A DNA stretch of 24,260 nucleotides, taken from the IMG/VR virus record IMGVR_UViG_3300007539_000217, positions 1-24,260 of that record; one strand, 5' to 3'. The stretch's first letter is position 1; every line of letters begins with the position of its first letter. This DNA comes from a virus. The notes under the pieces are model-generated. The model was not told the origin of the DNA, did not search any database, and saw nothing but the letters and a program-made list of their open reading frames with translations. The translations under genes and the position numbers were made by a program. Shown here in pieces: positions 2,749 through 24,260 of the stretch.

Positions 2749-3555
2749 TTAACTATCTGGGAAAGTTGTTGTCGGTACAGAAAAGTTTTCAATATATCTA
2801 GCAACTCCTGTAGTAATTCTAATTTCGGAAAGGAACCCATTAAAATATGTGTTATTTTCAAAGTATGGTCTATAACCAATCGTGAATCCCTGGTTTCCTG
2901 CTTGATTATAATTTGTGGCGTCAGATGCTGTATCTTGAAGAACTCCATTCATGAAAATTCTTCCAGTTCCACTTTGTCGAGTTACAGCGACATGATTCCA
3001 TCTATTTAATGTAAATTCGGAGCTAACAATAACATCAGTATTATCTTGTGCAGCATGTTCTATCGCATTATTTGATGCTCCAAAACTACCCTCGGCATCA
3101 CTTCCCGTCAACCAAATTTTAAAATCACCATTTGTTGTAAAAATTTGATTTGTTTCTATAACCCTTGCGAATGGTGTTCCACTATGGCGTGTAGATGAAT
3201 AAATCCAAAATTCAACTGTATAATCACCAGTTCCAAAACTGAAATCTGCATTGGCAGCAACTGTTAAGTAATCATCTATGCCATCAAACCTTATGCTGTT
3301 ATTTCCAAATAAAGTTTGATCGGATGATATTGATACTCCATTAGAACCTGTGATCGTTATTCCATTACTACTAGAATCTGTAAAAGTTGTTGATCCATTA
3401 TCTCCACTCGCATGTATTAACAAACTAACGCTTTCAAAATTTTCATCAGTTCCTCCTCCACCACCAGATGACCAAATCAAGGATGAACCTGCATATAAAG
3501 ATTGGACCTGAGTAGATCCAATGTACATTTGTGTTATGGCGTTAGTTGCTGGCAT
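2749..3555 (-). CDS. LamG / concanavalin A-like lectin-fold protein, putative adhesin
   Basis: 268 aa. After a short N-terminal anchor (MPATNAITQMYIGSTQVQSL) and a Gly-rich hinge (SSGGGGG, about 30-36), residues about 40-268 look like a single LamG-like jelly roll (Laminin_G_3 / ConA-like superfamily). Supporting motifs are SIRFDGIDDYLTV, FSFGTGDYTVEFWIYSS, NRWNHVAVTRQSGTGRIFMN, GVLQDT, GFTIGYRPY and FNGFLSEIRITTGVARY. Such domains commonly bind carbohydrate. Here it may contact the host surface, lipopolysaccharide or another glycan, as a virion decoration. It lies between the two gp14-like parts, with 1-nt and 2-nt junctions to its neighbours, suggesting a neck or collar location (inference). 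No signal peptide or membrane segment is visible. Fold assignment is strong; ligand and virion position are unknown. Confidence 0.85.
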   Translation of the reverse strand: MPATNAITQMYIGSTQVQSLYAGSSLIWSSGGGGGTDENFESVSLLIHASGDNGSTTFTDSSSNGITITGSNGVSISSDQTLFGNNSIRFDGIDDYLTVAANADFSFGTGDYTVEFWIYSSTRHSGTPFARVIETNQIFTTNGDFKIWLTGSDAEGSFGASNNAIEHAAQDNTDVIVSSEFTLNRWNHVAVTRQSGTGRIFMNGVLQDTASDATNYNQAGNQGFTIGYRPYFENNTYFNGFLSEIRITTGVARYIENFSVPTTTFPDS

Positions 3556-3556
3556 A

Positions 3557-3826
3557 TCAAGGAAGAACTACATAAAGTGTATTTGGATCAGGTGATGCAA
3601 TTGCACTATACCCTGCTGAACTAATAAAGACAGCATTTGTAATCGTACTAGCGCCACCAATGTTGCTTACTGAACTTAAAACGATATTTTCAACAGTAAC
3701 GCCATCCGTGCTTATGCCGGTATAAATCTCATCAAAGTTTGCATTAATCTTTACAGCGCCACTCAGTAAAGTGTCGCCAGTTCCATCATTTGGTGAAGTT
3801 CCTGTTGATATCCCTTGCTTAGCCAT
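3557..3826 (-). CDS. Small structural protein with T4 gp10 N-terminus-like domain
   Basis: 89 aa. Residues 1-36 carry MAKQGISTGTSPNDGTGD followed by GAVKINANFDEIY, matching the recalled start of T4 gp10 (KQNINIGNVVDDGTGD ... GIKINENFDELY), the baseplate wedge protein whose N-terminus binds gp7. The pattern DGTGD-x(6,7)-KIN-x-NF-x-E-Y is also frequent at the start of phage tail and fibre proteins. The rest (about 37-89) is Ser/Ile/Val-rich and ends PNTLYVVLP; the long gp10 body is absent. It may be an attachment module that docks its downstream neighbour, the LamG protein, to the virion. The ATG follows an AT-rich 24-nt gap after gp14 containing a late-promoter-like AATAAATA. Gene likely real; role inferred. 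Confidence 0.8.
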   Translation of the reverse strand: MAKQGISTGTSPNDGTGDTLLSGAVKINANFDEIYTGISTDGVTVENIVLSSVSNIGGASTITNAVFISSAGYSAIASPDPNTLYVVLP

Positions 3827-7757: not shown

Positions 7758-7985
7758 TCAGAAATTTCCTCCGTTGATGTCTAAATTCTGTGTTGCGCCT
7801 GGTGTCAACTCCAAGGTTGCTTCCCACTTCCTAATTGCGCTATTATAAACAAGAACCATGCCATTTTGTAAATTAGTAGCACTAACATCACTAAGCTCAG
7901 ACAGAGAAAGACCTTGGGCACCAGCTAACGAAGAAATAACTTTTACAGCTGGTTGTTGACCTACTCTGACTTTGATTTCAGCCAT
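7758..7985 (-). CDS. Small virion-associated protein with LSDV motif
   Basis: 75 aa. Residues about 26-60 read LSLSELSDVSATNLQNGMVL then VYNSAIRKWEATLEL. This is the 'LSDV ... dG-x-VLVYN ... kW' unit common in phage tail-fibre and structural proteins. The C-terminus (QNLDINGGNF) echoes the end of the next gene's product (TLDGGNF), as if the two share a terminal interaction motif. The start ATG is embedded in minus-strand TATAAATG, 27 nt downstream of a TATAAATA box, so it probably heads a late transcript including the fibre gene. It may be a fibre partner or a detached fibre segment; the exact role is unknown. Confidence 0.8.
   Translation of the reverse strand: MAEIKVRVGQQPAVKVISSLAGAQGLSLSELSDVSATNLQNGMVLVYNSAIRKWEATLELTPGATQNLDINGGNF
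7768..7772 (-). promoter_or_regulatory. Shine-Dalgarno GGAGG inside terminal NGGNF codons
   Basis: GGAGG encoded by the Gly-Gly codons of the 75-aa protein's end lies 11 nt before the fibre ATG at 7756. Confidence 0.65.
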
Positions 7986-8012
7986 TTATATACAAGATCA
8001 GGATCTAAGAAG

Positions 8013-8020
8013 TATTTATA
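8013..8020 (-). promoter_or_regulatory. T4-type late promoter box TATAAATA
   Basis: A perfect minus-strand TATAAATA lies in the 38-nt gap after the 57-aa gene, 27 nt before the ATG at 7985. In T4-like phages this box is read by the gp55/gp33-modified host RNA polymerase. Being intergenic on the coding strand raises confidence. Confidence 0.7.
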
Positions 8021-8023
8021 CTG

Positions 8024-8197
8024 TTATGATCCCATGAGAGCAGCCACAACTTCCTGCTGTTTAAAATAAAGTTTCACGTATGACTTTGCAAGATTTTTCA
8101 AATCATCGATAGAATCTAATTTGTCTATCTCAGAAGCGATTTTGAAATACTCAAAACTCTTCGTTAAATTTTCAAGCTCAATTTTGTCTGGATCCAT
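8024..8197 (-). CDS. Small 57-aa protein, unknown function
   Basis: Starts MDPDKIELENLTKSFEYFKI and ends QQEVVAALMGS. It is acidic to neutral, helical, with no membrane span or enzymatic motif. The ATG at 8197 overlaps the end of the preceding 75-aa gene by 20 nt in another frame. It has a good Shine-Dalgarno, AAGGA at 8206-8210 with 8 nt spacing, supporting it as a real gene despite its length. Small helical proteins of this kind sit among structural genes in cyanophages as I recall them. It may be an assembly factor or minor virion protein; this cannot be decided from sequence. Confidence 0.75.
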   Translation of the reverse strand: MDPDKIELENLTKSFEYFKIASEIDKLDSIDDLKNLAKSYVKLYFKQQEVVAALMGS

Positions 8198-8405
8198 TTG
8201 TAAGTTCCTTTAATAGGGATTTGATTTCTTCAATATCACTTTTTATTTGATTGAGTTCGTCTTTCTCCTTCTGTTTTTGTTCTTTCATCCTAATATAGTT
8301 TGAATATGCCGATCTGTCTGTATTGACAATAGCACCCGTAAATCTATCCCTAAAAAGATTGCCATGACCTTCAACAGGTATTAGATTTTCATCCTCAGTA
8401 TTCAT
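8178..8405 (-). CDS. Small charged helical protein, unknown function
   Basis: 75 aa from the ATG at 8405. The frame can be extended to a TTG at 8420, but that would overlap the upstream stop; the ATG placed as TGA-T-ATG is the natural choice. Residues 1-35 hold a beta-prone, conserved-looking segment (GNLFRDRFTGAIVNTDRSAY). Residues about 38-70 form a Lys/Glu-rich coiled coil (KEQKQKEKDELNQI, DIEEIKSLLKELTN). I recall similar small proteins ('xRDxxTGAIINT' plus coiled coil) near structural genes of cyanophages, of unknown function. It is tightly coupled to the giant gene upstream and overlaps the 57-aa gene by 20 nt. Confidence 0.8.
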   Translation of the reverse strand: MNTEDENLIPVEGHGNLFRDRFTGAIVNTDRSAYSNYIRMKEQKQKEKDELNQIKSDIEEIKSLLKELTNGSRQN

Positions 8406-8406
8406 A

Positions 8407-11400
8407 TCATGCAAGAGCAATACATCTAAAATCTTTCAGTTTAACAGGAGTAGATTCGTTGGTTGAAGAAAGAACAACTTTAATAGCAAATGCATCAAAC
8501 TGTTCCAGATTATTTGCAGTAAACTGATATTCTGAGAAAGTTTGTGCGTTGTTTGGAGCAACAAAACCATCTGCTCTTCCACTATTTTTGTTTGGATCGA
8601 CAACTTGATCTCCAAAACCATCACCGTCAGTATCAATCATATTATCATATCCTGGGAATGGAACAAACTTCTGAGGAACTTCAGAAGAATCTGCTTTGAA
8701 AAGTTTATAGAAAACTCTAAAATCAGCATCTTCTTGTCTATTAGCAGCAATAACAACACGTAAACTTGTTGCTGGTTGCAAAAGACCAACTGTTCTTGTT
8801 ACAAAAACTGCTCCATGTGGATCACTGTTGATTTCATTCGATCTGCTATCAACAACATAATCATCAATAGGTTTGTTGGATTTATTTCTTCCAAGAACAA
8901 ACGTTGCATTTTGAATGTCCATTACGGGAGAAAGATTTTCATTCTCTGTTCTGAAATCTACCTGTAATGTCAGAGATTTATTAGATGGAAGATCTGTCAA
9001 TCTTTCCAGTTCATTTACTCTAGATGCAACCATTCTTGGTGTTGGAAGTTGAATAACTCTATTCAGAGGAATAGATTCAAATCCTTGATCAAGGAATGAA
9101 ACTTCACTTCCACCTGCACTTGTTCCAGAAATAGTTCTCAGTCTGCTATTTGCAGAAGTTCCCTTTCCTGGGGTAATAACATTGAATACTGGTTCAATAG
9201 AACTAAACTGGTGGTTTTGTGAAATACCAACCGTATTTCCACCAAATCCTTTCTCACCCTCAAAGTTGATCATCGATGCACCACTAGATCTAATAGTTGG
9301 TGAAGTTCTGCTAAACTCTAAGAAGTAGTTGTCAAGGTTGGAACTTTCTGATTTGTAGTATGTTGATGGAATATCATGAGTGGTGTTGATTCTCATAAGA
9401 GAAACGCCATTTACTTCATATGGTTGAATGAAATCTGTTGCAGGGTGAGTGCTCTTAACAGAGTTATTCAGATTTCTTGCATCGATTGTGAGAGTTCCTG
9501 CTCCACCAGATCCAGCAGTGATATTGCTGTAAGAAACAACTTCATTTTGAATCAATGCATATCCACGGCTAGTAGATATTCCTTCAAATGTTGCGAATGG
9601 GGTGGTATTTGCAACTGATACAGTTGTATCATTTAATCCAAATGCTGCTGTCAGAGCAACTCTTTCTCTATCTGGGGAAACATTTGTGATTTCAATCTTA
9701 TTGTTTCCACCATGATGTGCGTGATTGTATTGCTTAACTCTGAATATATTTCCAGAGTACTTATCATCAATCAAACTAGAAGTTCCATTTACAGATGCAG
9801 ATGTATTAGTTCTAGTTGATTCGTCAGTTTGATCGGTGTAGTAAACAACAGTTGCAGAGTTTGTGAAGTTCTGACCCTGAACATTGGTCAAGTAAATGGT
9901 ATCAAATGTATCATGCTCAGTTACACCAACTCTCGCACCAGATCCACCACCGATAGTTGATGTGGTGATTCCAAGAACTTCACCATTAACATAACCACTA
10001 CCACTGGTAGTAACATTAACGGCAGTAACTATGTTTCCAGAAACAGTAACCGTTGCTTGAGCACCAGATCCTTTTCCAGAAAGGGAGAAGAGTGGTACGG
10101 AAGTATGTGTTCCATTTGGATACTGACTTCCTGCGGTAATAATCTCAACATTGCCAGTTCCAGTTGGAATAGGACCACCAGTATTTTCAACAATACCCGT
10201 GATGCTTGGGCTTGAACCCTCACCGATTTTAACTCCTGGTTTAATATTTGCAACCTCTGTTCCAGTAACACCAGATACGGGCAGTTTCAGTTTTCTTGGA
10301 AGACCCTCGATTGGATTTTCTGCAAGTTTTGCAGCATTATTTCCATTTGGAGTAATATCTGAGTTATAGAATGTCAAAGTTCCGGATGGAACAAACTTTG
10401 CCTTATAAAGTTTGAAGGTCAAATCTTGATATTGGCTTGCAGTCCAAATAGTACCATTTTGGGACTTAAAGAGAGACCCTCCAATATACTGTTTAGTGAC
10501 AACAACGTTCTGAACATCTGGGAGATTCTGTGTTCTAACAGTCTTCTGACCCATTGTTGCTGTCCACATTTCATAACCATCAGATGCAGGTGAGAGGATT
10601 ACGATAGCGTATTCTTTGTCTGCTTCCAAATAAACAGGAGATGGGAATCTGATTCTAGTTGGAACTGGTTCAAATGGATTTGCTTCATTGATATTGATAT
10701 TTTCTGGATTCAGTGCTACTTGTGTATAGTCCTGAACCAAGAACGATGTTGGAGTTCCAAGTTCAACAGTTCTAAGTTCAATATAGATCTTAGCACCTGG
10801 GTCCTTAGTGGCAAAGTAAAGATCGAATGATGTTAAGAATGCACCTCTTCCATCAACGGTAAATGATTGTGCAAGTGGGTCTCTGTGTGGTGCCTTAACT
10901 TGAACATTAACCTCTGTCGCTTTCGCTGCTGGTTTGGGTGGATTTCTAACTGCAACACGACTGGTTTCTTGTGTAAGAATAGTACCAGATCCGCTATACG
11001 TTCCAAGTGCTTCACTAGCAAATACGGTTGAACCTGGAAGTGGTGTAACACCAGGAGGAACTGCTGTAACTTTTACAGTCTTAGTTCCACTCTTAACTTT
11101 TACTGGTGGTGGTGGATTGCTGTTTGGATCTCTGAAGAAGAAGTTGGCAACAATATCACCCCAGTTATCAGATACCAACTCTGCTCTGGTAATATTTGCG
11201 ATTGCACCACTGGATCTACCAACAACTCTTGCACCAGCGGTTACATAACCATAATATTTTTCTTCGGTAGAAAGTGCTCTTACTCCAAAGTTGATGAGTT
11301 TTGATGTTGGTGAATATGAAGTTCCAGGTGCTGGTCTAGTTCTATCATATGGATCAACACTATATTCCTCAACGAGAACAGCGGGAGATCCTAATCCTGC

Positions 11401-14214
11401 ACCAATATCAGGTCTAGATGTATCGCCAAACTTGTGATTTGGTTTTTGAACTCTAATATGACCAATCTTTCTTCCACCATAGAAGATATCTGCGTCCTCA
11501 AACACCTGGAAAGTTCCAGATACCATTTCAATCTCACAAAGTTTTGGTACAAGATCTACTTGCTGACTATCAAGGTAATGGTAGTGCTTGGTAAATGGTC
11601 TCAAACCATTTGCATTGAAGTATACGTTTCTTGAACGCATATATGGATCAACATTACCAGAAATCTTAACATCCTCAACATAGTTAAACTCTCTTGATGG
11701 ACCTTGAAGTTTTGGTGTATATTGTGTTGTGGTTGTGGTAGTTGTTGTTGTAAACGCCTTTGTTGTTTTCTCTCCTCTACCACCACCTTTCCTGTAAGTG
11801 ACGTATTCGGTTTGATTGTCAACATCGACATTTACCTTTGCTTCCTGTACCCAGTTAGCGCCAGTTGATTCTACTCTGTGATCATCAATGTAAATCGTTC
11901 TTACCCAGTTATCTGACTGAGGATCAAGAGCGATTCCTCCAACAAATACAATGACATTGAATGGGTTAACATTTTCCACATTAGTTGCATGTGGTTGGTT
12001 GATCCAATCAACTTCTTGATAAGCAAGAGTTAATAAATCGCCAGTTTTTTGGATATTTGCATCAAGTAACTTTAAGTTTTGGGAAAGGTCTGCTTTTGTT
12101 CTATCAATTCCTGGATCCAATGCAAGCTCTGCTGGCATTGACCAAAAGTCAATAGGTGTGATTGCAGTTGCACTTTCTCTACTTACATCGATAGTTGAGT
12201 ATCTTGGATCTGCAAGAGATTTATCTCTAAAATCACTAACAATAAAACCGGACTTAAATCTATTCAAACCGTTTGCATCGGTTACTTCAAGAGATTTTGC
12301 ATTAAGTTCAAGCAAAGACAAACTTGTAACTTCTTCAAGATTTTCAATTCTTTGCTCAAGTTTAGCAATATCACGCATCGTGAATCTTCTGTTGTCTCTC
12401 AGAAGAATCTTTGGATCTTTTGCTGGATTGAAAAGATATGCTGGGAGACTAATTTGTGCGATTTCCATCGCATCATCGGCAAGAACTGGTGCCTGTGGGT
12501 TATCATTAGCATCACCCTGAACGATTTCAATCTCGCCAAGGCGGTTGAGAGTTACCAAATCTATTCTTGGTAGATAGTAACTATATCCAATAAAGGATGT
12601 TTCATCAGGAGATACAATGTATCTGTAATTTGTTTCGTATGATCTGCTACTAAATGCAAATGGAGATGCATTGGTAGAAGATGGATCAAACTCATTGACT
12701 CTTGGTCTAAAATCGAGAAGATCTGTTACACGAGTTCCATTTGGAATAGAAGGAATATCTGATGTGTATCTATCTTCCGTATAGGAATTGACAGTAAAGA
12801 TATCTCCACTGTTTCCTGTGGCAACCTTATAGTGATCAAGAACGATCAAGAGTTGTTTTGTTGGTACAGCAGCACCTTGTCTTCTTCTTATTCTAGAATA
12901 ATCGCAGTATTGATTCTTATGACCCTTATCTAGAACATAGTTTTTAGTTCTATCTACATAACTTCCATTCGTTACTTCTTGGATTACTGCACTGATTGCA
13001 GATTCCTTAAACTTGACAGTTTCACCAACTTCAAAGTTATCTTCGTTGAGATAAACAAAATCTACTGTTGTTGATGTCTTATTGACAATTTGTGCAACGG
13101 CTCTACTATCTTCTCCTACGATCTTTTCGCCAACAATAGCATTTGCATCCAGAGAAAGTCCTGTTGCAAAGGTTAACTTATCAAGAACAGGAGCAGATGT
13201 ATTTGTAGACTCGTAAACAGCACGAACATTAACAACATCGGGAACATTGAGCGAGATTTCGTTATCTTCTACTCTTAAACCATAATACAAACTAGTTGTT
13301 AATCCAGTTGCTGTTGAAGATCCACTTGTTCTTGTTACTGATACCTGCTTACTTCTTGTGAAGTTTTTGGACTTATTAGTAACATTTCTCTTGTTGAGAG
13401 TTGCAACAACAGTTACGTTAGACTGTGATGCTGTAAGATTTGTGAAGGAAACGGATCCTCCATTAGCACCAAGAGTGAACTGATCTGATGTGAGTTGCTC
13501 AGTAGATCCATCACTGTAGTGAATAGAGTATCTTTCAGCATCAAATGCCTCAAAGAATACGCTAGTGATGCCTGCGGAGGTATCTAATGCATCTGATGTT
13601 GTAATGGTAAGTTCTCCACTACCATTAGTAGATCTTCCTGTGATTTGCTTTGTGATCGTAAGATCTGATTGTGCCAAATCAACGGATGCAATCTTTGATT
13701 TGGGAAGTTCACTATAAAGACCAGATGCCTCAGATCCTGTGATTTTTGGAACCATGATTCTGAATACAGAATCTCCATTATCAACGTTTGCCCTTGCAAC
13801 TCCACTAACACTAGAATCTATTGCTGCCAAACCAATAGAAGTTCCATTGGCAGCAATAGAGGTGATTCTGTTGAAGTTTGGATCACTTTGACCAGCAGTT
13901 TGATATGCAATGATTGATTCGGTTTTGATTCCAGTTACTGCACTGAAAAGTCTACCTGGAACAGCACCAGTATTTCCACCACTGACCGTCAACTTGTCGG
14001 TGATAGAAAACTTGGGTGGCATTGTCGCATACAAAACAGCATCCGCAATGAAATCAGTCTGTAAGGATGTGTTTAAAGTATTTGAGTCCTGATGTACGGA
14101 CTTAATGTCTTCTACTGCATGAACATCTACCGCTTTGATTGCAACCTTATATTCTGGATTTTCATTGATGATTACCTGCTCACCAACTAAGAAAGTTCCG
14201 ATGTTTGTGAAATG
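8407..14214 (-). CDS. 3' part of frameshifted DUF4815-type giant baseplate/tail protein
   Basis: The frame is open from 14214 to the stop at 8407 (1935 codons) without a credible start: a TTG at 14034 and an ATG at 14022 lack a Shine-Dalgarno. The 60 codons upstream of 14034 read as normal protein (GTFLVGEQVIINENPEYKV; AVEDIKSVHQDSNTL) continuing the upstream gene. Features in order: GE-x-SGA modules (GEKIVGEDSRAVAQIV); a coiled-coil block MRDIAKLEQRIENLEEVTSL near 12310-12390, typical of DUF4815 proteins as I recall; a nine-Thr run (11725-11751); a beta module starting DPLAQSFTVDGRGAFLTSFD (10820-10885); GxGY-like repeats near 9990; and a Ca-type loop DTDGDGFGD near 8625. It is probably a baseplate-to-fibre connector. 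In the sequence as given it would be untranslated unless the frame is corrected. Confidence 0.85.
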   Translation of the reverse strand, partial: HFTNIGTFLVGEQVIINENPEYKVAIKAVDVHAVEDIKSVHQDSNTLNTSLQTDFIADAVLYATMPPKFSITDKLTVSGGNTGAVPGRLFSAVTGIKTESIIAYQTAGQSDPNFNRITSIAANGTSIGLAAIDSSVSGVARANVDNGDSVFRIMVPKITGSEASGLYSELPKSKIASVDLAQSDLTITKQITGRSTNGSGELTITTSDALDTSAGITSVFFEAFDAERYSIHYSDGSTEQLTSDQFTLGANGGSVSFTNLTASQSNVTVVATLNKRNVTNKSKNFTRSKQVSVTRTSGSSTATGLTTSLYYGLRVEDNEISLNVPDVVNVRAVYESTNTSAPVLDKLTFATGLSLDANAIVGEKIVGEDSRAVAQIVNKTSTTVDFVYLNEDNFEVGETVKFKESAISAVIQEVTNGSYVDRTKNYVLDKGHKNQYCDYSRIRRRQGAAVPTKQLLIVLDHYKVATGNSGDIFTVNSYTEDRYTSDIPSIPNGTRVTDLLDFRPRVNEFDPSSTNASPFAFSSRSYETNYRYIVSPDETSFIGYSYYLPRIDLVTLNRLGEIEIVQGDANDNPQAPVLADDAMEIAQISLPAYLFNPAKDPKILLRDNRRFTMRDIAKLEQRIENLEEVTSLSLLELNAKSLEVTDANGLNRFKSGFIVSDFRDKSLADPRYSTIDVSRESATAITPIDFWSMPAELALDPGIDRTKADLSQNLKLLDANIQKTGDLLTLAYQEVDWINQPHATNVENVNPFNVIVFVGGIALDPQSDNWVRTIYIDDHRVESTGANWVQEAKVNVDVDNQTEYVTYRKGGGRGEKTTKAFTTTTTTTTTQYTPKLQGPSREFNYVEDVKISGNVDPYMRSRNVYFNANGLRPFTKHYHYLDSQQVDLVPKLCEIEMVSGTFQVFEDADIFYGGRKIGHIRVQKPNHKFGDTSRPDIGAGLGSPAVLVEEYSVDPYDRTRPAPGTSYSPTSKLINFGVRALSTEEKYYGYVTAGARVVGRSSGAIANITRAELVSDNWGDIVANFFFRDPNSNPPPPVKVKSGTKTVKVTAVPPGVTPLPGSTVFASEALGTYSGSGTILTQETSRVAVRNPPKPAAKATEVNVQVKAPHRDPLAQSFTVDGRGAFLTSFDLYFATKDPGAKIYIELRTVELGTPTSFLVQDYTQVALNPENININEANPFEPVPTRIRFPSPVYLEADKEYAIVILSPASDGYEMWTATMGQKTVRTQNLPDVQNVVVTKQYIGGSLFKSQNGTIWTASQYQDLTFKLYKAKFVPSGTLTFYNSDITPNGNNAAKLAENPIEGLPRKLKLPVSGVTGTEVANIKPGVKIGEGSSPSITGIVENTGGPIPTGTGNVEIITAGSQYPNGTHTSVPLFSLSGKGSGAQATVTVSGNIVTAVNVTTSGSGYVNGEVLGITTSTIGGGSGARVGVTEHDTFDTIYLTNVQGQNFTNSATVVYYTDQTDESTRTNTSASVNGTSSLIDDKYSGNIFRVKQYNHAHHGGNNKIEITNVSPDRERVALTAAFGLNDTTVSVANTTPFATFEGISTSRGYALIQNEVVSYSNITAGSGGAGTLTIDARNLNNSVKSTHPATDFIQPYEVNGVSLMRINTTHDIPSTYYKSESSNLDNYFLEFSRTSPTIRSSGASMINFEGEKGFGGNTVGISQNHQFSSIEPVFNVITPGKGTSANSRLRTISGTSAGGSEVSFLDQGFESIPLNRVIQLPTPRMVASRVNELERLTDLPSNKSLTLQVDFRTENENLSPVMDIQNATFVLGRNKSNKPIDDYVVDSRSNEINSDPHGAVFVTRTVGLLQPATSLRVVIAANRQEDADFRVFYKLFKADSSEVPQKFVPFPGYDNMIDTDGDGFGDQVVDPNKNSGRADGFVAPNNAQTFSEYQFTANNLEQFDAFAIKVVLSSTNESTPVKLKDFRCIALA
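11725..11751 (-). repeat. Nine-threonine run
   Basis: Nine consecutive Thr codons (mixed ACA, ACT, ACC) follow a Gly/Lys-rich stretch (KGGGRGEKTTKAF) and precede QYTPKLQGP. This looks like a flexible linker between domains of the DUF4815-type protein. Confidence 0.8.
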
Positions 14215-14217
14215 CTA
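14187..14217 (-). other. Apparent -1 frameshift / one-base deletion site
   Basis: The upstream frame stops with TAG at 14187-14189, and the downstream frame is closed by TAG at 14215-14217, so any shift must lie between. Upstream the frame reads ...SISQTS; shifted, it reads GTFLVGEQV. Adding one base at the TCGGA near 14198-14200 restores QTSGTFLVGEQ and makes 15773-8407 divisible by three (7367 + 1 = 7368). No canonical X-XXY-YYZ slippery heptamer is present in the correct frame, so a deletion or sequencing error is favoured over programmed shifting. Confidence 0.8.
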
Positions 14218-15773
14218 AATGCAGCATCATTTGGTTTTGATGCAAGATATCCAGTTGCACCACTTGAAAGACCTCTTACGAAAGATGTCAGTGGGACATC
14301 TGATGTCGAATATTCTTTTCCAAGATAAAGAGTCGTGTAGGTTTGGATATCATAGAGATACAAATCCCACTCAGTTGTTGCTCCGCTATATGGTGCATCG
14401 GAAACACCATACCAATAAACTCTTGCTTCACCGATCTTTAATCCTGTTCCAGCATTAGTTGTTGAGGTATTTCTTCTTCTGTTGTAAAGTGAGATTACAT
14501 TAGATCCACTACCAACAGGAGCACCAATATTTAAATATGGAACACCAAATACATTATTAACCTTTAAAAGGCTTCCCATCGAGAATGGTACTAATGCACC
14601 ATCAACTTTTTTGGTAGATCTTGGTTTTTCTACATCAACAATGGTAGATCCAACAAGATCAACATCAAAACCTTTAACATATGCGGTGCCAGCAGACACT
14701 CTAACACACATCAAATCGTCGCTAGGTACATTACCTTGCTCTGTTTTTTGACCTTCTCTATAAAGACCGCCATTACCAGTCTCATTATTGAGTGAGTTGA
14801 CTACATCTACTTTGAATGGATCAACTGCATAGTTTCCAGACTCTTCAAATGTTCTCTTGGCAAAGTAGTCCTTGATTACACTATACTCAGACTTATTCTG
14901 TAACTTCTTGATTACGCCCTGATCAACTTTAACTAACTCAACGAAGTTAGTATCATCAAAATCTGAAAGTTGCTTTTTAGATAATCTTACACTAATCTTC
15001 AATCTATCAGCACCAGGTGCTGCATAGTTTGTAAAACCTTTTGCATTATCGTTTAATCTTGGATCATCATCAGAATTGACAATCTCTTCTAAGATATCAA
15101 AACCAACTCTATATGATGGTTCGTTATTGTATGGATCAAGGATGATTTGTGATGTTGCAACATCTACAAAAACTCCTCTGATAAAATAGACTCCTTGTGA
15201 AACACCAACAGCATATCCAGTTGAAGTTGCATCAACTGAGAAGGTTGTTAATACTGTATCACCTGCGTTTAGTGTTGTATTTCCATACGTTACGTTTTCT
15301 TCGAGGATTAAAACTTCCCCATCTTCAAATTCAATAGATTCTCCATCAGAAGCACCATCACGGTACTTAACAAACAATGTAATCTCTTCAACTCCCTCTT
15401 CCGGTGGGAGCAAATATCCCTTTAATGTGCCGACAATACCTGAATTTTGTCCTTTTACCTTAATACCTTTTCCGTTATTTCCACCAACGATTGCATCGAG
15501 GTATACTGTAATGTCAATACCTAAGTGATCTGGATTTACTTTTACCGTAGTAAAAGCATTATCGCAAGTAACTCCACCAGGGATTACCATAGATCCTTCT
15601 TTGAAGATATGACTTCCGAAGGATTCTATCTGATTTTGTAAAGCAGATTGAAGACCAGTTAGTTCTCTTGCCTGAACTGGGTGACCAGGCTTGAAGAGAA
15701 CTCTGTAAAAGTTATCTCCTTTATCAAAATCATCATAGTAAGGACTTACATTTAGATTAGTCTTTTGTGGCAT
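14187..15773 (-). CDS. DUF4815-domain baseplate/tail protein, 5' part before frameshift
   Basis: 528 aa as read. The N-terminus (KTNLNVSPYYDDFDKGDNFY; VLFKPGHPVQARELTGLQSA; LQNQIESFGSHIFKEGSMV) is the signature I associate with DUF4815, a domain of tail/baseplate proteins in T4-like and other large myoviruses. Later segments include GVYFIRGVFVDVATSQIILD, DRLKISVRLSKKQL and AGTAYVKGFDVDLVGS. The reading frame ends inside a GE-x-SGA module (RGLSSGATGYLAS), which reads on naturally in the -1 frame. The intact protein would be about 2455 aa, running to 8407. The start ATG lies 3 nt after the gp8 stop, so it is coupled to gp8. Function is inferred as a large baseplate or fibre-base component, filling the space where T4 has genes 9-12. 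Confidence 0.88.
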   Translation of the reverse strand: MPQKTNLNVSPYYDDFDKGDNFYRVLFKPGHPVQARELTGLQSALQNQIESFGSHIFKEGSMVIPGGVTCDNAFTTVKVNPDHLGIDITVYLDAIVGGNNGKGIKVKGQNSGIVGTLKGYLLPPEEGVEEITLFVKYRDGASDGESIEFEDGEVLILEENVTYGNTTLNAGDTVLTTFSVDATSTGYAVGVSQGVYFIRGVFVDVATSQIILDPYNNEPSYRVGFDILEEIVNSDDDPRLNDNAKGFTNYAAPGADRLKISVRLSKKQLSDFDDTNFVELVKVDQGVIKKLQNKSEYSVIKDYFAKRTFEESGNYAVDPFKVDVVNSLNNETGNGGLYREGQKTEQGNVPSDDLMCVRVSAGTAYVKGFDVDLVGSTIVDVEKPRSTKKVDGALVPFSMGSLLKVNNVFGVPYLNIGAPVGSGSNVISLYNRRRNTSTTNAGTGLKIGEARVYWYGVSDAPYSGATTEWDLYLYDIQTYTTLYLGKEYSTSDVPLTSFVRGLSSGATGYLASKPNDAAFSISQTSELS

Positions 15774-17366: not shown

Positions 17367-20300
17367 TTATGGAAGGTTGGAAAGTTTTCTGATTCCACCA
17401 CCATTTCTCAATCCAAAGGTTCTTCTTTGGATCGTTGGGAAGGTGGATAATCCAGAATCAACCACAAGACCAGTAACTCCGATGGAAACTGGATTTGCGC
17501 GTAAATCATAGTTATAAATCCTACCCCAAGAGATACTTCCTAATGGAAGTGTGGTTGACCCATTAGTTGCAATTCCAGCAACGTTGCTTGATGTGTGGAT
17601 GTTGCAGAGTATTTCTGCATCAGGTCCAAAGTTAGTCTTAGAGTTAACAATATAAACATTATCAAGGAATAATGTTCCAATTCCAACGATTGATGCATCT
17701 TCACTGTTAACTGATGTAAGACCAGTTCCAACGGTTGTATCATAAACAAGGATTGGATATCCAACTTGAAGGTCATTGGCATCTGATGCGTTTGCGCGGA
17801 AGTTAATCTTCAACGCAAGTGGATGACCACCAGTTCCAGTTGTAGTTGTGATTCCTGTAATAATGCCAGAGAATCCCTGAACATTCTGGATATTTGCAAC
17901 CAACTCAGTAACTGCCTTTGGAACTACGGTAATAACTTGTGGTGGATTTGTGCTTGTGTACCCAAAACCAGGATTGTCAATAGTTACCGAAGTTACAGAA
18001 CCGCCAGAGATCGTTGCCGTTCCAGAAGCGGTTGAACCGATTCCAACTCCGATAGAAGAAGGTGCGGAGAACTTAACTGGAACAGTAGCGACAGAATAAC
18101 CAATACCAGCGTTTGTGATTGTGATAGCACTGATTGTACCACCAGCGGAAACAGTTGCTGTAAATGCGGCAGATACTGGATCTGATCCCTCAACAATCAA
18201 TCCATCAACAGTATTGATTGTTATTCCATAGTTATCTTCTTCGTAGTTAAAGAACTGTGCATTATCTACAAAGATATCAGTTGATCCAACATTTAAGTCG
18301 CCAATGATTTTGGCAGTTGGGAAGATAGCGGGTTCAAGAGAATCTCTTGTCTTGTAAATGATATCACCCTTAACATACTTATCTTTCTTCTGCTTGATCC
18401 AATCAATTGGTTTGAATGTGGTATCATTGATTCCAGTACCAACATAAATGTCTGTTTCAACAGTATCGGAACCAAGAAGATCTACGATAGTTCTATCGCG
18501 CAGTTGATCAGCAGTTAATGGATACAGAGGATGTTTCTTAACAAAAACATCATCACCGATCTTGATTGTTTCATTTACGTCAATCAGAGTAACATCAACA
18601 CCTTCTTGACCAAGATAGAAGAATATATCAACCTTGTCAGATTCTTTTGGTGGTTCTGTGAATACCACTGAGGTTCCACCAGCAAACTGATATGCATATC
18701 CAGGTTGCTGAATAACACCGTTAACGAATATGACAAGAACCGCGTCAAGATCAATAGCACCAGAAAGTGGATTATTTGGATCAACCTCAAAACTTAACAG
18801 TTGACCATTGTAATACAGTGGGAATCTGGTTCTGCTTCCGTTTTGAAGGAATCTTGGACTATCGATGTAATCCATTTCTCCAAATGACCATGATGAGAAC
18901 AAGTCGTTAAATGTTTCAACAACTTCAAGTTGGAAGTCTGAGATTGGTTCAGCAAAGTCTTTTGCTGTAACAAGACCAACAACCTTCATAACATCGCCAA
19001 CTTGGAATGAATATCCAGGTCTTGTAATCTGGAAGGATTCTACCAAGAAGAGTGTAGATCCTATGCCAACGTTTGTACTTGCAGATCCAATCTTAACATT
19101 GAGGAGAAGATTGCTACCAGTTTCTGTTGTTGCACCGATTCCAAGTCTTGATACACCAACAACTTCCATATTTTCATAAATTGGTTCTGGAATTTCGATG
19201 TATGGTTCTACATATCCAGATCCACCACTAGTAACTGTAAATCCGAGTGTTCCACCTGCACCAACAGTAGCAGAAATAGTTGCTTCTGTGCCAGAATGAT
19301 TTGGATCTGTGATTCCGATTGATACTGGACCTCTGTATCCAGAACCATTATTTAAGGCAAAGTACTCATAAACAGTACCAAATCCAATATAGTTGTGTAC
19401 GATTGTGCTAGGTCCAACGTTAACTGTTAGACTCGTATCAGAAAGAATGTTAACAATGTCATATGCACGATCAACGAAGTTTGGTTGATCTTCTGGGAAG
19501 TATGAAGTAACGCCAGGATTTGTTGGGCAAGTGAATGCTAAACCAACCAGTTTTACTCTATCTCCACCATTCAAACCGTGTGCGGTAGTAGTTTCGATTT
19601 CAATAATACCAGAAGTATTATTGTAAGATGCTGTGCTAACTCCTAAACTTGCACCAGTAATAGTAGTTCCAACACTAACAACATCTACAATCGATCCAGA
19701 TCCATCAAGAACTGCCCTAACCTTTGCCCCTACAAGGGGTGCGTAACCAAGACCAGGTGTGGATCCAAGGGAAACGATCAAACCACCTCTTGGGAGTTGA
19801 TTCTGGTTGATGTCAAACTCAGATCTGATGTATGATCCATCTGTTGATGTAATGCCAGTAAACACTACACTAGAAATACCAGCAACAGAATCATTTTCAA
19901 ACTCATAGTTATTTCCAGAGTTATTGATTGTTGTTGGTGTTTGGAAAACACCGTTCAGGAACAGGATTCCATTTCCAATATCAACACCGGTGGTATTAAT
20001 ACCCTGAACAGTCATCGTGTATGTTTTACCAATACCAGTAAACTGATCAGAGATATCATCAAAAATCATATTGGTGTCATAGTTTGATCTCAGGAAGGTT
20101 CTGCCCGAATATTGTGCTCTTACATAAGGAAGATTACTTTCATCTCTTCTTGCTCTTGTATTACCCTTAGGTGGATCTGCGAAGAATATCTCATTTCCTA
20201 CAATATTAAATGATCCTCTATAAAGTTGAACATTTGCACCATCAGTGTGAGATATTGCTGTGCTACCGAAAGATGCTCTTACAACAGAAACTGTTGGGAA

Positions 20301-23300
20301 TGTTGCGGCAGTACCAGATTGAATAATACCATTGATAGGACCAAGTAAAGCACCGCCAACATTGGTACTAACACCAACTTCAACAACCTTCATATATTCA
20401 TCATCAATTTTAAGAATATCTCTTGGTTGAACAGATGAAATTCCACTCAGGTTGAAAGTTGCAATACCAGCAGAAATGGATCCACTATTGTATTGAAGAC
20501 TGTGGGAAATGGGAGTAAAGGTGATTGGTTGTTGAACAATACCATCAAGAGAGATTACTGACTTGGAAAGTTTCTTAGTCAGTTCAAGTTCATGTGCGTT
20601 TCCAAGTCCAACATCAGTAAATGTTACCGCAATGCCAGAAGTTGCATATTGCTTTTGAGTTGACAATCTAAATGTATCTGGTGTGATAACGATTGGATAT
20701 ACTCTCTCTGGCAATCTGTCGGTTACAACACCAAGATAGTTTGCTGTTGCTCCGATTCCCATAGCACTCTGTCCAACACCAATGAATGATGCTTTTGGAG
20801 TATAGATTAACTCTTCGCCAGTATTGAGGAAGTGATTTCTGATCGTAAATACACCAGTTTCAAGATCTATTACACTAGAATCTGATGGTGAGAAAGTCTT
20901 CTTATAGATTGGTATTCCCTGGTAAGTTAATGGGAAGTTGACTTTATTTGCTCTTGTTCCGTTGATACTATCATATGATGAGAGGAACAGTCTTTGGTTA
21001 CTTGGACCATATGAAAGTTGTAGAGGTTCATTATCAAAATCGCTGAGTGTGTAGAACACTTCATTGAAAGATTGAAGTTCAACATCAAAACCTGAATCTG
21101 GATAGAAGTTTAAGTAGAACTCATTTCCATTAACTTCTCCACCAAATGTTCCCAATCCAGAAACATTATTTGTTGGTGCAAAAGGACCAGGTGTTACTGT
21201 AACATCTTCACCATCATACAGTGCAGAAACCTGGTGAACAGCGGAACTACTTCCAGAAGAAACTCTTACCAAAGATGATGTTGATGTAATAGTGTTAATA
21301 TCAAAGGTTCCAACTCGGATAACAGTTGTTCCAAATCCAACAGTTGATTCAAGTCTTGCACTTCTTTCAGAACCAGATGGTTGAGCACTAACCAAGAACC
21401 TATAAGTTCCAATGCCAGCAGTTGTTGCTGCAAACCCTACAATGTTTGCACGAATGTCCAGATTATTAATAGTATCATTTTGAACTCTAAATGATACAAT
21501 ACCAGCAGTTGAATCGTATATTGATGTAACAATACCAATGGAAGAGTTGCTATATGATTGAGTAGTAGTATCAAAATAGTACTCACTCAAATAAGTATTT
21601 GTTCCATCAAAATCTAAAACTGCTTCAACATAGTTTAGATCCCTAGTGAATGTGTTGAATATTTCAATATTTGCAAACAATCCATTGAAGTTGCTATCAG
21701 AAACTTCCAAAACAGTGGCAATATTATTGGCGGTTCCAATGCTGGTAACACCAATAACGTTTGAACCTGTCAAGTTAACACAACCAAAGGTTTCTGTTCC
21801 TAACCCAGAAACAGAGTTTAGGAAAGTTTTCTTCAAGATCTTAATATCATGATCTCTTTCAAATCTGTCAGTAGGAGTGAATATTAATGTTTTTCTTCCA
21901 GTCGAATCAACATTGGCGCTGAAATCGCCAAGTTTCTCTTTTGTATATGTTGTTGACTTCTCAAACAAGATGGAATCGAGAGTTGTTGTTTGTAAAACCA
22001 ACTCGCTCAGTTGAGAATCAAAAGTATCTGGATCAACAATCTGAATCAGGTATCTTACGTGAGTATCAATAATATCAATCTCTTCAATCTCAACGAATGG
22101 ATCTTCAAATCCTCTGCTAGAAAATCTTCCGCTGATATCATCATGAATCAGAACTCTGTTAGTTCTACATTCCGTGTAATCAGTCAGTTTTCTATTTTGA
22201 ATCTGTAAGAACTTAGATTGATTTCCCCTAACATCATAATCAACGGTATTATCGAAGTTGTTGATAATATCAACTCTTCTTTCACCAACAACATCAAGAA
22301 TAACAAGACTTGTTGTTGATCCACCAAGACCAACAGATCCATTGGCGGCGGAAGTTATACCAACATCCGCAAAGTTCTTCATACCAGCAGGGTGAAGCAA
22401 ACCATTTACTGGATTCACAAACTCATTCCAAGAGATTGGACTCTTGATAGAGTAAGAAAGATTTTGATAATAATCGTTATTTGGAGTTACCTGATAATCT
22501 TCACTAATCTTACCAGTGTCATTTCTCCATCCAATATCTTTCTTCGAAGCATAATCAATAGTAAACTTGGCTCTGTTGCCACTGATGCTAGAAACTTCTG
22601 CTATAACACCACTAACTCTTCCCTTGATTCTATCTCCCTTCTGTAAGGAATATCTACCTTTTATCTTAATGTAATCATCTCTTACAGAGGTAACAAAAAT
22701 ATCCTGCTCAGAGAATCCAGATCCAATATCAACAAAGAGTTGCTCATTAAGGGCAAATACGCCTCTCTTCTTAATAACATCGATGATTGGATAGTTGGAT
22801 TCGTTGATGATGGTTGCATATCCAGATTGGAAAGTTTTTGCGATTCCTGGATTTGTTGTCAACCCAACTCCATCATTATCAACGAGAGCAAAGGTAACCT
22901 TTGCTGGATTTGTATTCAAATAGGACTGAACGGTGAAGAACTGATAGTCATAGTTTTCGGAGTTGTATCCAGATCCATTAGATCCATCTGTGAGTTCAAT
23001 ACCCTCAACAAATATTCTATCGCCAATGGTAAACTGTGGAACGCTAAATCCTAAAATTGGCGTCTTCAATGTGCATGTAGCAACACCAGAGTTGCTAGTT
23101 ACCATCGAACTGATACCAACACCATTAGAGTTATTAATAGCAATAATCTTATGTGGTTCAGAATCTAATCCGTATATTGGTGCTAACTGAATAACATCAG
23201 CGATTGATCCATTTGGAGTATCTGCCAGAAGTGTTGTAGTATCAACTACTTCCTTGGTTGTATCATTAAGAAGTATCAGATCGGGAGCACTGAGGTATTT

Positions 23301-24260
23301 TGCACCACCAAATTGAATGTCAATCTGATCGATAGTATCGAGATTGTCGATTCTAACAACAGGAGAAACAAATGCTTCTGGTCTCAGAGTCTTATCTGAT
23401 GGATACTCATATCCAATATCCTTAATCCTTACGCTCTTGATATTTCCAACCGAATCGGAAATCGCAGAAACGTTAGCATTTTCACCATCCCTAGTCTCAA
23501 CATCAACAAACTTTGGAAGATTTTTGAAGTTGAAACCTTTGGAAATGATTTTTACCTTTCCGATTGATCCATTTATTGCTGTTGAGGATTTTGTTGAGTA
23601 CTCTAATACATCAGTCTGATTCTCTGTGTATGTCAGAACAGAAGGAAGACTGTATGGTGAAATATTAAATGTATTTGTTGAGATTCCAAATATCTGATAG
23701 GTTCCATTGTACTCACTATCAACATAGTTGATGAGAGAATTGTTGGAAACATCTACGTCAGATGTGCTAATATATCCTGATTTTTCTAATGAATAGTAGA
23801 GTTTTGATGGTATATTTTTGGAGTATTTTAAAGTGAGGGAGGCAGTTCCTAGACCAACGCTACCAACACCAACAACATTGAACTGTCTATCATCGGAAGC
23901 ACTTACAAATTCATTTTTAAACTCTCTATCATAGAATATCTTCAAGTCATATCCAGTTAGAGAAGAATCACCAAGATTAAATACCAAATCGGAATTTCTA
24001 ACAACATTGATCTGAGGATTGATCAGCGCAAACGTGTGGATTGTTGCACCAGTTCCAACAATGTTGACTGTTTTTTCAGATGCAGGTTTTGCTTCATAAG
24101 CAGTCTCTGCCAATCTGAAGGTGCTGCTACTATCTCTTACAACGTAGTATGAACCAGTTGTCAATCCAGATGCAACCTCAATACTTGTGTAGTGAATCTT
24201 GTCGCCAGTCTTATATCCGTGATCAGTTACTGTAATAGTGTTTGTAACGGTATTAATCTG
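17367..24260 (-). CDS. Giant repeat-rich tail/baseplate protein, 5' end cut (gp7 position)
   Basis: The frame is open to the window edge, giving 2297 residues with the N-terminus missing. A TTG at 24164 is not a real start: 32 further in-frame codons precede it (INTVTNTITVTDHGYKTGDK). The protein is beta-rich with mosaic modules, numbered from the edge: an HGY-x-TGD-x-I-x-Y unit at about 13-25 and a variant (NHFLNTGEELIYTP) near 1120; GE/GD-x-SG units (GDRIKGRVSGVIAEV); three 'DG/NG-x-x-Q-x-P' units (SLDGIVQQP near 1240, FLNGVFQTP near 1432, FVNGVIQQPG near 1842); an AHGLNGGDRVKLVGL unit; and GxGY repeats near 1640, 1680, 2050 and 2095. There is no enzyme motif or membrane span. Immediately upstream of gp8 it occupies the place of T4 gene 7, a baseplate wedge scaffold, but I see no direct gp7 similarity. 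The stop at 17367 is followed by a late promoter. Confidence 0.85.
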   Translation of the reverse strand, partial: QINTVTNTITVTDHGYKTGDKIHYTSIEVASGLTTGSYYVVRDSSSTFRLAETAYEAKPASEKTVNIVGTGATIHTFALINPQINVVRNSDLVFNLGDSSLTGYDLKIFYDREFKNEFVSASDDRQFNVVGVGSVGLGTASLTLKYSKNIPSKLYYSLEKSGYISTSDVDVSNNSLINYVDSEYNGTYQIFGISTNTFNISPYSLPSVLTYTENQTDVLEYSTKSSTAINGSIGKVKIISKGFNFKNLPKFVDVETRDGENANVSAISDSVGNIKSVRIKDIGYEYPSDKTLRPEAFVSPVVRIDNLDTIDQIDIQFGGAKYLSAPDLILLNDTTKEVVDTTTLLADTPNGSIADVIQLAPIYGLDSEPHKIIAINNSNGVGISSMVTSNSGVATCTLKTPILGFSVPQFTIGDRIFVEGIELTDGSNGSGYNSENYDYQFFTVQSYLNTNPAKVTFALVDNDGVGLTTNPGIAKTFQSGYATIINESNYPIIDVIKKRGVFALNEQLFVDIGSGFSEQDIFVTSVRDDYIKIKGRYSLQKGDRIKGRVSGVIAEVSSISGNRAKFTIDYASKKDIGWRNDTGKISEDYQVTPNNDYYQNLSYSIKSPISWNEFVNPVNGLLHPAGMKNFADVGITSAANGSVGLGGSTTSLVILDVVGERRVDIINNFDNTVDYDVRGNQSKFLQIQNRKLTDYTECRTNRVLIHDDISGRFSSRGFEDPFVEIEEIDIIDTHVRYLIQIVDPDTFDSQLSELVLQTTTLDSILFEKSTTYTKEKLGDFSANVDSTGRKTLIFTPTDRFERDHDIKILKKTFLNSVSGLGTETFGCVNLTGSNVIGVTSIGTANNIATVLEVSDSNFNGLFANIEIFNTFTRDLNYVEAVLDFDGTNTYLSEYYFDTTTQSYSNSSIGIVTSIYDSTAGIVSFRVQNDTINNLDIRANIVGFAATTAGIGTYRFLVSAQPSGSERSARLESTVGFGTTVIRVGTFDINTITSTSSLVRVSSGSSSAVHQVSALYDGEDVTVTPGPFAPTNNVSGLGTFGGEVNGNEFYLNFYPDSGFDVELQSFNEVFYTLSDFDNEPLQLSYGPSNQRLFLSSYDSINGTRANKVNFPLTYQGIPIYKKTFSPSDSSVIDLETGVFTIRNHFLNTGEELIYTPKASFIGVGQSAMGIGATANYLGVVTDRLPERVYPIVITPDTFRLSTQKQYATSGIAVTFTDVGLGNAHELELTKKLSKSVISLDGIVQQPITFTPISHSLQYNSGSISAGIATFNLSGISSVQPRDILKIDDEYMKVVEVGVSTNVGGALLGPINGIIQSGTAATFPTVSVVRASFGSTAISHTDGANVQLYRGSFNIVGNEIFFADPPKGNTRARRDESNLPYVRAQYSGRTFLRSNYDTNMIFDDISDQFTGIGKTYTMTVQGINTTGVDIGNGILFLNGVFQTPTTINNSGNNYEFENDSVAGISSVVFTGITSTDGSYIRSEFDINQNQLPRGGLIVSLGSTPGLGYAPLVGAKVRAVLDGSGSIVDVVSVGTTITGASLGVSTASYNNTSGIIEIETTTAHGLNGGDRVKLVGLAFTCPTNPGVTSYFPEDQPNFVDRAYDIVNILSDTSLTVNVGPSTIVHNYIGFGTVYEYFALNNGSGYRGPVSIGITDPNHSGTEATISATVGAGGTLGFTVTSGGSGYVEPYIEIPEPIYENMEVVGVSRLGIGATTETGSNLLLNVKIGSASTNVGIGSTLFLVESFQITRPGYSFQVGDVMKVVGLVTAKDFAEPISDFQLEVVETFNDLFSSWSFGEMDYIDSPRFLQNGSRTRFPLYYNGQLLSFEVDPNNPLSGAIDLDAVLVIFVNGVIQQPGYAYQFAGGTSVVFTEPPKESDKVDIFFYLGQEGVDVTLIDVNETIKIGDDVFVKKHPLYPLTADQLRDRTIVDLLGSDTVETDIYVGTGINDTTFKPIDWIKQKKDKYVKGDIIYKTRDSLEPAIFPTAKIIGDLNVGSTDIFVDNAQFFNYEEDNYGITINTVDGLIVEGSDPVSAAFTATVSAGGTISAITITNAGIGYSVATVPVKFSAPSSIGVGIGSTASGTATISGGSVTSVTIDNPGFGYTSTNPPQVITVVPKAVTELVANIQNVQGFSGIITGITTTTGTGGHPLALKINFRANASDANDLQVGYPILVYDTTVGTGLTSVNSEDASIVGIGTLFLDNVYIVNSKTNFGPDAEILCNIHTSSNVAGIATNGSTTLPLGSISWGRIYNYDLRANPVSIGVTGLVVDSGLSTFPTIQRRTFGLRNGGGIRKLSNLP
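17925..18135 (-). repeat. Two GxGY repeats in the giant protein, distal pair
   Basis: ISAITITNAGIGYSVATVPV and VTSVTIDNPGFGYTSTNPPQ lie about 45 residues apart, matching the unit seen in gp14 and the 228-aa protein. Confidence 0.75.
19180..19375 (-). repeat. Two GxGY repeats in the giant protein, proximal pair
   Basis: ALNNGSGYRGPVSIGITD and GFTVTSGGSGYVEPYIEI lie about 40 residues apart and belong to the same repeat family. Confidence 0.75.

Follow-up and report, generated by a model that had tools for sequence, protein, structure and literature searches.

A single-base loss found in one contig only very probably splits a DUF4815/VrlC-type baseplate gene of a T4-like cyanophage

In this contig, and in no other, a T4-like cyanophage structural gene very probably lacks a single base, the break being a private one and neither a regulatory nor a recoding device. 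The window, the whole stretch of 24,260 bases of an IMG/VR record that was analyzed, encodes tail and neck components of such a phage on its minus strand, namely a baseplate wedge gene in the gp7 position, gp8, the DUF4815 gene, small structural genes, neck proteins, a gp15-type sheath stabiliser and the small terminase. The order gp7-gp8-DUF4815 is that of T4-like cyanophages and was matched to Prochlorococcus phage P-SSM2, in which PSSM2_113 forms one uninterrupted CDS of 7521 bp located after gp7 and gp8, a picture shared by other cultured phages. The features around the break, in the direction of transcription, are as follows.

17367..24260, minus strand: baseplate wedge gene in the gp7 position (phrog_2885), open to the contig edge and cut by the contig end
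15777..17336, minus strand: gp8-like baseplate wedge gene (Pfam Phage-Gp8, phrog_438), directly upstream of the split gene
14187..15773, minus strand: N-terminal half of the DUF4815/VrlC-type baseplate gene, 528 codons plus stop (phrog_358 positions 1-500, E 1.8e-181; Pfam DUF4815 39-249)
14187..14217, minus strand: frame overlap, the sole stretch in which both frames are open; no slippery heptamer
between 14199 and 14200, minus strand: the lesion, where alignments make the window one base shorter than a near-identical contig and the relatives; not in a homopolymer
8407..14214, minus strand: C-terminal part of the same gene, its frame shifted by one base; the ORF proper is 8407-14034, 1875 aa (phrog_358 positions 502-2055, E 0; Pfam DUF4815 370-566)

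The two open reading frames at 14187-15773 and 8407-14214 (minus strand) are halves of one DUF4815/VrlC-type baseplate gene. An earlier note on this DNA had attributed the 528-aa and 1875-aa products to one gene, and this is borne out by their matches to consecutive stretches of phrog_358 and by the Pfam DUF4815 match being divided between them, with PF16075 scoring above its cutoff in each. In profile searches both halves together span positions 1-2055 of the 2056 positions of phrog_358, and a consecutive match of this kind to one family lies far beyond chance. Using an intact relative as the tblastn query, residues 1-521 were found in one frame and residues 522-2448 in another, with the pieces meeting at the same base. 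The last few codons of the upstream ORF, before its stop, are out of frame; the loss of one base shifts the reading frame, and the protein terminates after a few more codons.

The downstream frame becomes readable past the TAG at 14217-14215, and the upstream frame runs as far as the TAG at 14189-14187; the 28 bases common to both accord with the proposal that the frames overlap only between the stops at 14187 and 14217. Furthermore, tblastn indicated that the downstream frame codes for homologous protein from its first codons past the TAG at 14217-14215. Relatives align from residue 6 of the 60-codon stretch between the opening of this frame and its first possible start, consistent with the claim that the 180 bases before that start encode good protein. 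The first in-frame starts are TTG at 14034 and then ATG at 14022, and a Shine-Dalgarno core was detected at none of the first eight. The earlier observation that the second ORF has no start with a ribosome binding site therefore holds (0 of 8), but as an argument against an independent start it is weak by itself, because the genuine upstream start at 15773 also lacks the core. The C-terminal frame has no credible start of its own. No structured RNA or tRNA was detected near the site.

The lesion was located by comparison with contig IMGVR_UViG_3300010297_000049, which overlaps the window over 19,098 bp at 99.84% identity and in which the same gene occupies one frame of 2455 codons from ATG, exactly the total of about 2455 aa that had been predicted. 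Across this overlap there are 30 substitutions, and the lesion is the only indel. The nearest substitution lies more than 670 bp from the lesion, and both flanks match at about 99.9%. Because the gene is continuous in so similar a contig, the broken frame represents a damaged copy of a DUF4815/phrog_358 member rather than a different family. Since the substitutions are mostly synonymous (23 of the 28 in coding sequence), both contigs appear to be good copies of a natural phage population, and the remaining window sequence looks accurate and under selection. Separately, seven substitutions relative to this contig are clustered within about 260 bases at the contig end (23970-24225), perhaps marking a recombination edge or a contig end of lower quality.

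Relatives were gathered by three protein scans, yielding 200 loci in about 107 groups of identical or near-identical sequence, 188 of which cross the junction. Among these 200 loci, comprising 972 kb of aligned gene, no frame break was found by the identical procedure that flags the window, a count in which broken copies may be under-represented since the retrieval keeps the best-scoring relatives and may favour intact ones. The proposal that one gene was split by the loss of one base is thus borne out directly, both by the unbroken relatives and by the position of the sole indel against the near-identical contig. The 36-base junction sequence of the window is absent from all other IMG/VR contigs, whereas its intact counterpart was recovered from the near-identical contig. 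Pairs of relatives at 98.9% identity or above, compared over 4.8-12.8 kb each, contained no indels. In GenBank, 289 phage records match the intact protein over 80% or more of its length at one location; among the 60 matches listed, those with annotation have one named feature beneath the match, with the exception of S-MbCM6, where two are named. On these sequence comparisons the one-base loss is private to this contig. This very large baseplate gene strictly retains its reading frame in all the relatives examined, so an interruption in it usefully flags sequence error or a defective genome.

With respect to the origin of the absent base, a technical cause, in which the base was lost during amplification, sequencing or assembly, is considered probable, as a matter of judgement rather than measurement. 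Since no other broken copy was found and the gene is strongly conserved, we infer that an error is more likely than a defective genome. Sequencing and assembly indels usually fall in homopolymers or repeats, and the absent base lies outside both, which argues against a technical origin and leaves room for a real mutation. A real frameshift, such that some of the sampled phage genomes have an interrupted baseplate gene and are defective, are complemented, or can dispense with the part, is accordingly a possible but distinctly less probable reading. It is favoured by the position of the lesion and by the accurate appearance of the rest of the contig; however, no second contig carries the lesion, an assembled consensus normally represents the commonest form, and loss of the gene appears to be selected against because it is unbroken in all 200 fetched loci. 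It is plausible that the part is essential in this phage. It is very unlikely that a real subpopulation with a truncated DUF4815 protein persists, whether sustained by intact phage infecting the same cells or able on some host to do without the C-terminal 1900 residues.

The earlier note had offered three explanations, of which sequencing or assembly error and a defective genome stand as candidates and an undescribed recoding event does not. Programmed -1 ribosomal frameshifting or transcriptional slippage would yield the full protein by linking the two frames, and a short overlap followed by a homologous downstream frame formally permits a -1 shift, yet the 28-base overlap contains no X XXY YYZ slippery heptamer, no homopolymer longer than 3 was found in or near it, and the relatives, including the contig at 99.84% identity, have a plain open frame. 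Conservation of the split frame, as would be expected of a frameshift gene, was observed at 0 of 200 loci. Recoding is unsupported because there is no slippery site, the relatives need none and the lesion is private; we regard it as extremely improbable, and with neither a slippery heptamer nor a long homopolymer in the overlap it was dismissed.

It is likewise very hard to credit that the window encodes a 528-aa protein and, as a separate gene with its own start, a second protein of roughly 1875 aa. In favour are the length of both ORFs and the start codons that can be assigned to them mechanically, but the second is preceded, ahead of its earliest possible start, by 60 codons of conserved protein, its internal starts lack a Shine-Dalgarno site and no relative is split here. 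An independent second gene is excluded for the lineage, given coding conserved upstream of all starts and relatives that are all joined. Automatic gene callers will nevertheless report two proteins for one, and the second would be given a false TTG start. A chimera of two phages at the junction was rejected because the two flanks agree with one and the same contig at about 99.9% and are free of substitutions out to 670 bp from the site, and repeat-driven misassembly was rejected as the 200 bp around the site have no near-identical repeat in the window.

Several other genes of the window were noted. The apparent gap after the DUF4815 gene (7758-8420) is filled by three small, tightly packed genes at 8178-8420, 8024-8197 and 7758-7985, with matches to phrog_473 and phrog_13853. 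An 89-aa ORF at 3557-3826 matches a wedge/tail-fibre connector family over just the N-terminal 66 of its 412 positions; one base further on lies a 268-aa laminin-G-like lectin protein (2749-3555), and this arrangement (2749-3826) may reflect natural exchange of a tail-fibre module. The 228-aa protein at 2060-2746 matches different structural families in its parts, the C-terminal region of head closure Hc2 and the N-terminus of a baseplate wedge protein, a mosaic that suggests decoration domains common to structural proteins of this phage. A lysine-rich open frame of 256 aa (1-768) follows the small terminase gene and runs off the contig.

Tailed phages have programmed -1 frameshift genes, for example the lambda G/GT tail assembly genes. 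The window resembles lambda G/GT in that two overlapping frames jointly encode a longer protein, but it has no slippery heptamer and its relatives encode the protein in one frame. A literature search under the name DUF4815 returned nothing relevant. Homologues with DUF4815 were found by sequence in Listeria phage A511 (gp106), in Herelleviridae (VrlC/TmpG) and in the solved structure PDB 9euf (ORF65), although these proteins, at about 1150-1175 aa, are far smaller and resemble that of the window only distantly. A511 Gp106 forms the pyramids of a two-layer baseplate and is proposed to make contact with the cell wall (PMC11406892), and VrlC has been described as belonging to the two-layered baseplates of pelagi- and cyanomyophages (PMC7029224). 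By extension from these published homologues, the intact cyanophage protein probably has a role in a two-layer baseplate. The closest counterpart is the 'VrlC/VriC' baseplate protein of T4-like cyanophages (PHROG 358, Pfam PF16075), which occupies the same place after gp7 and gp8, has the same length (about 2450-2540 aa) and matches both halves strongly over its full length; in the relatives examined its frame is continuous, whereas in the window it is broken by one absent base.
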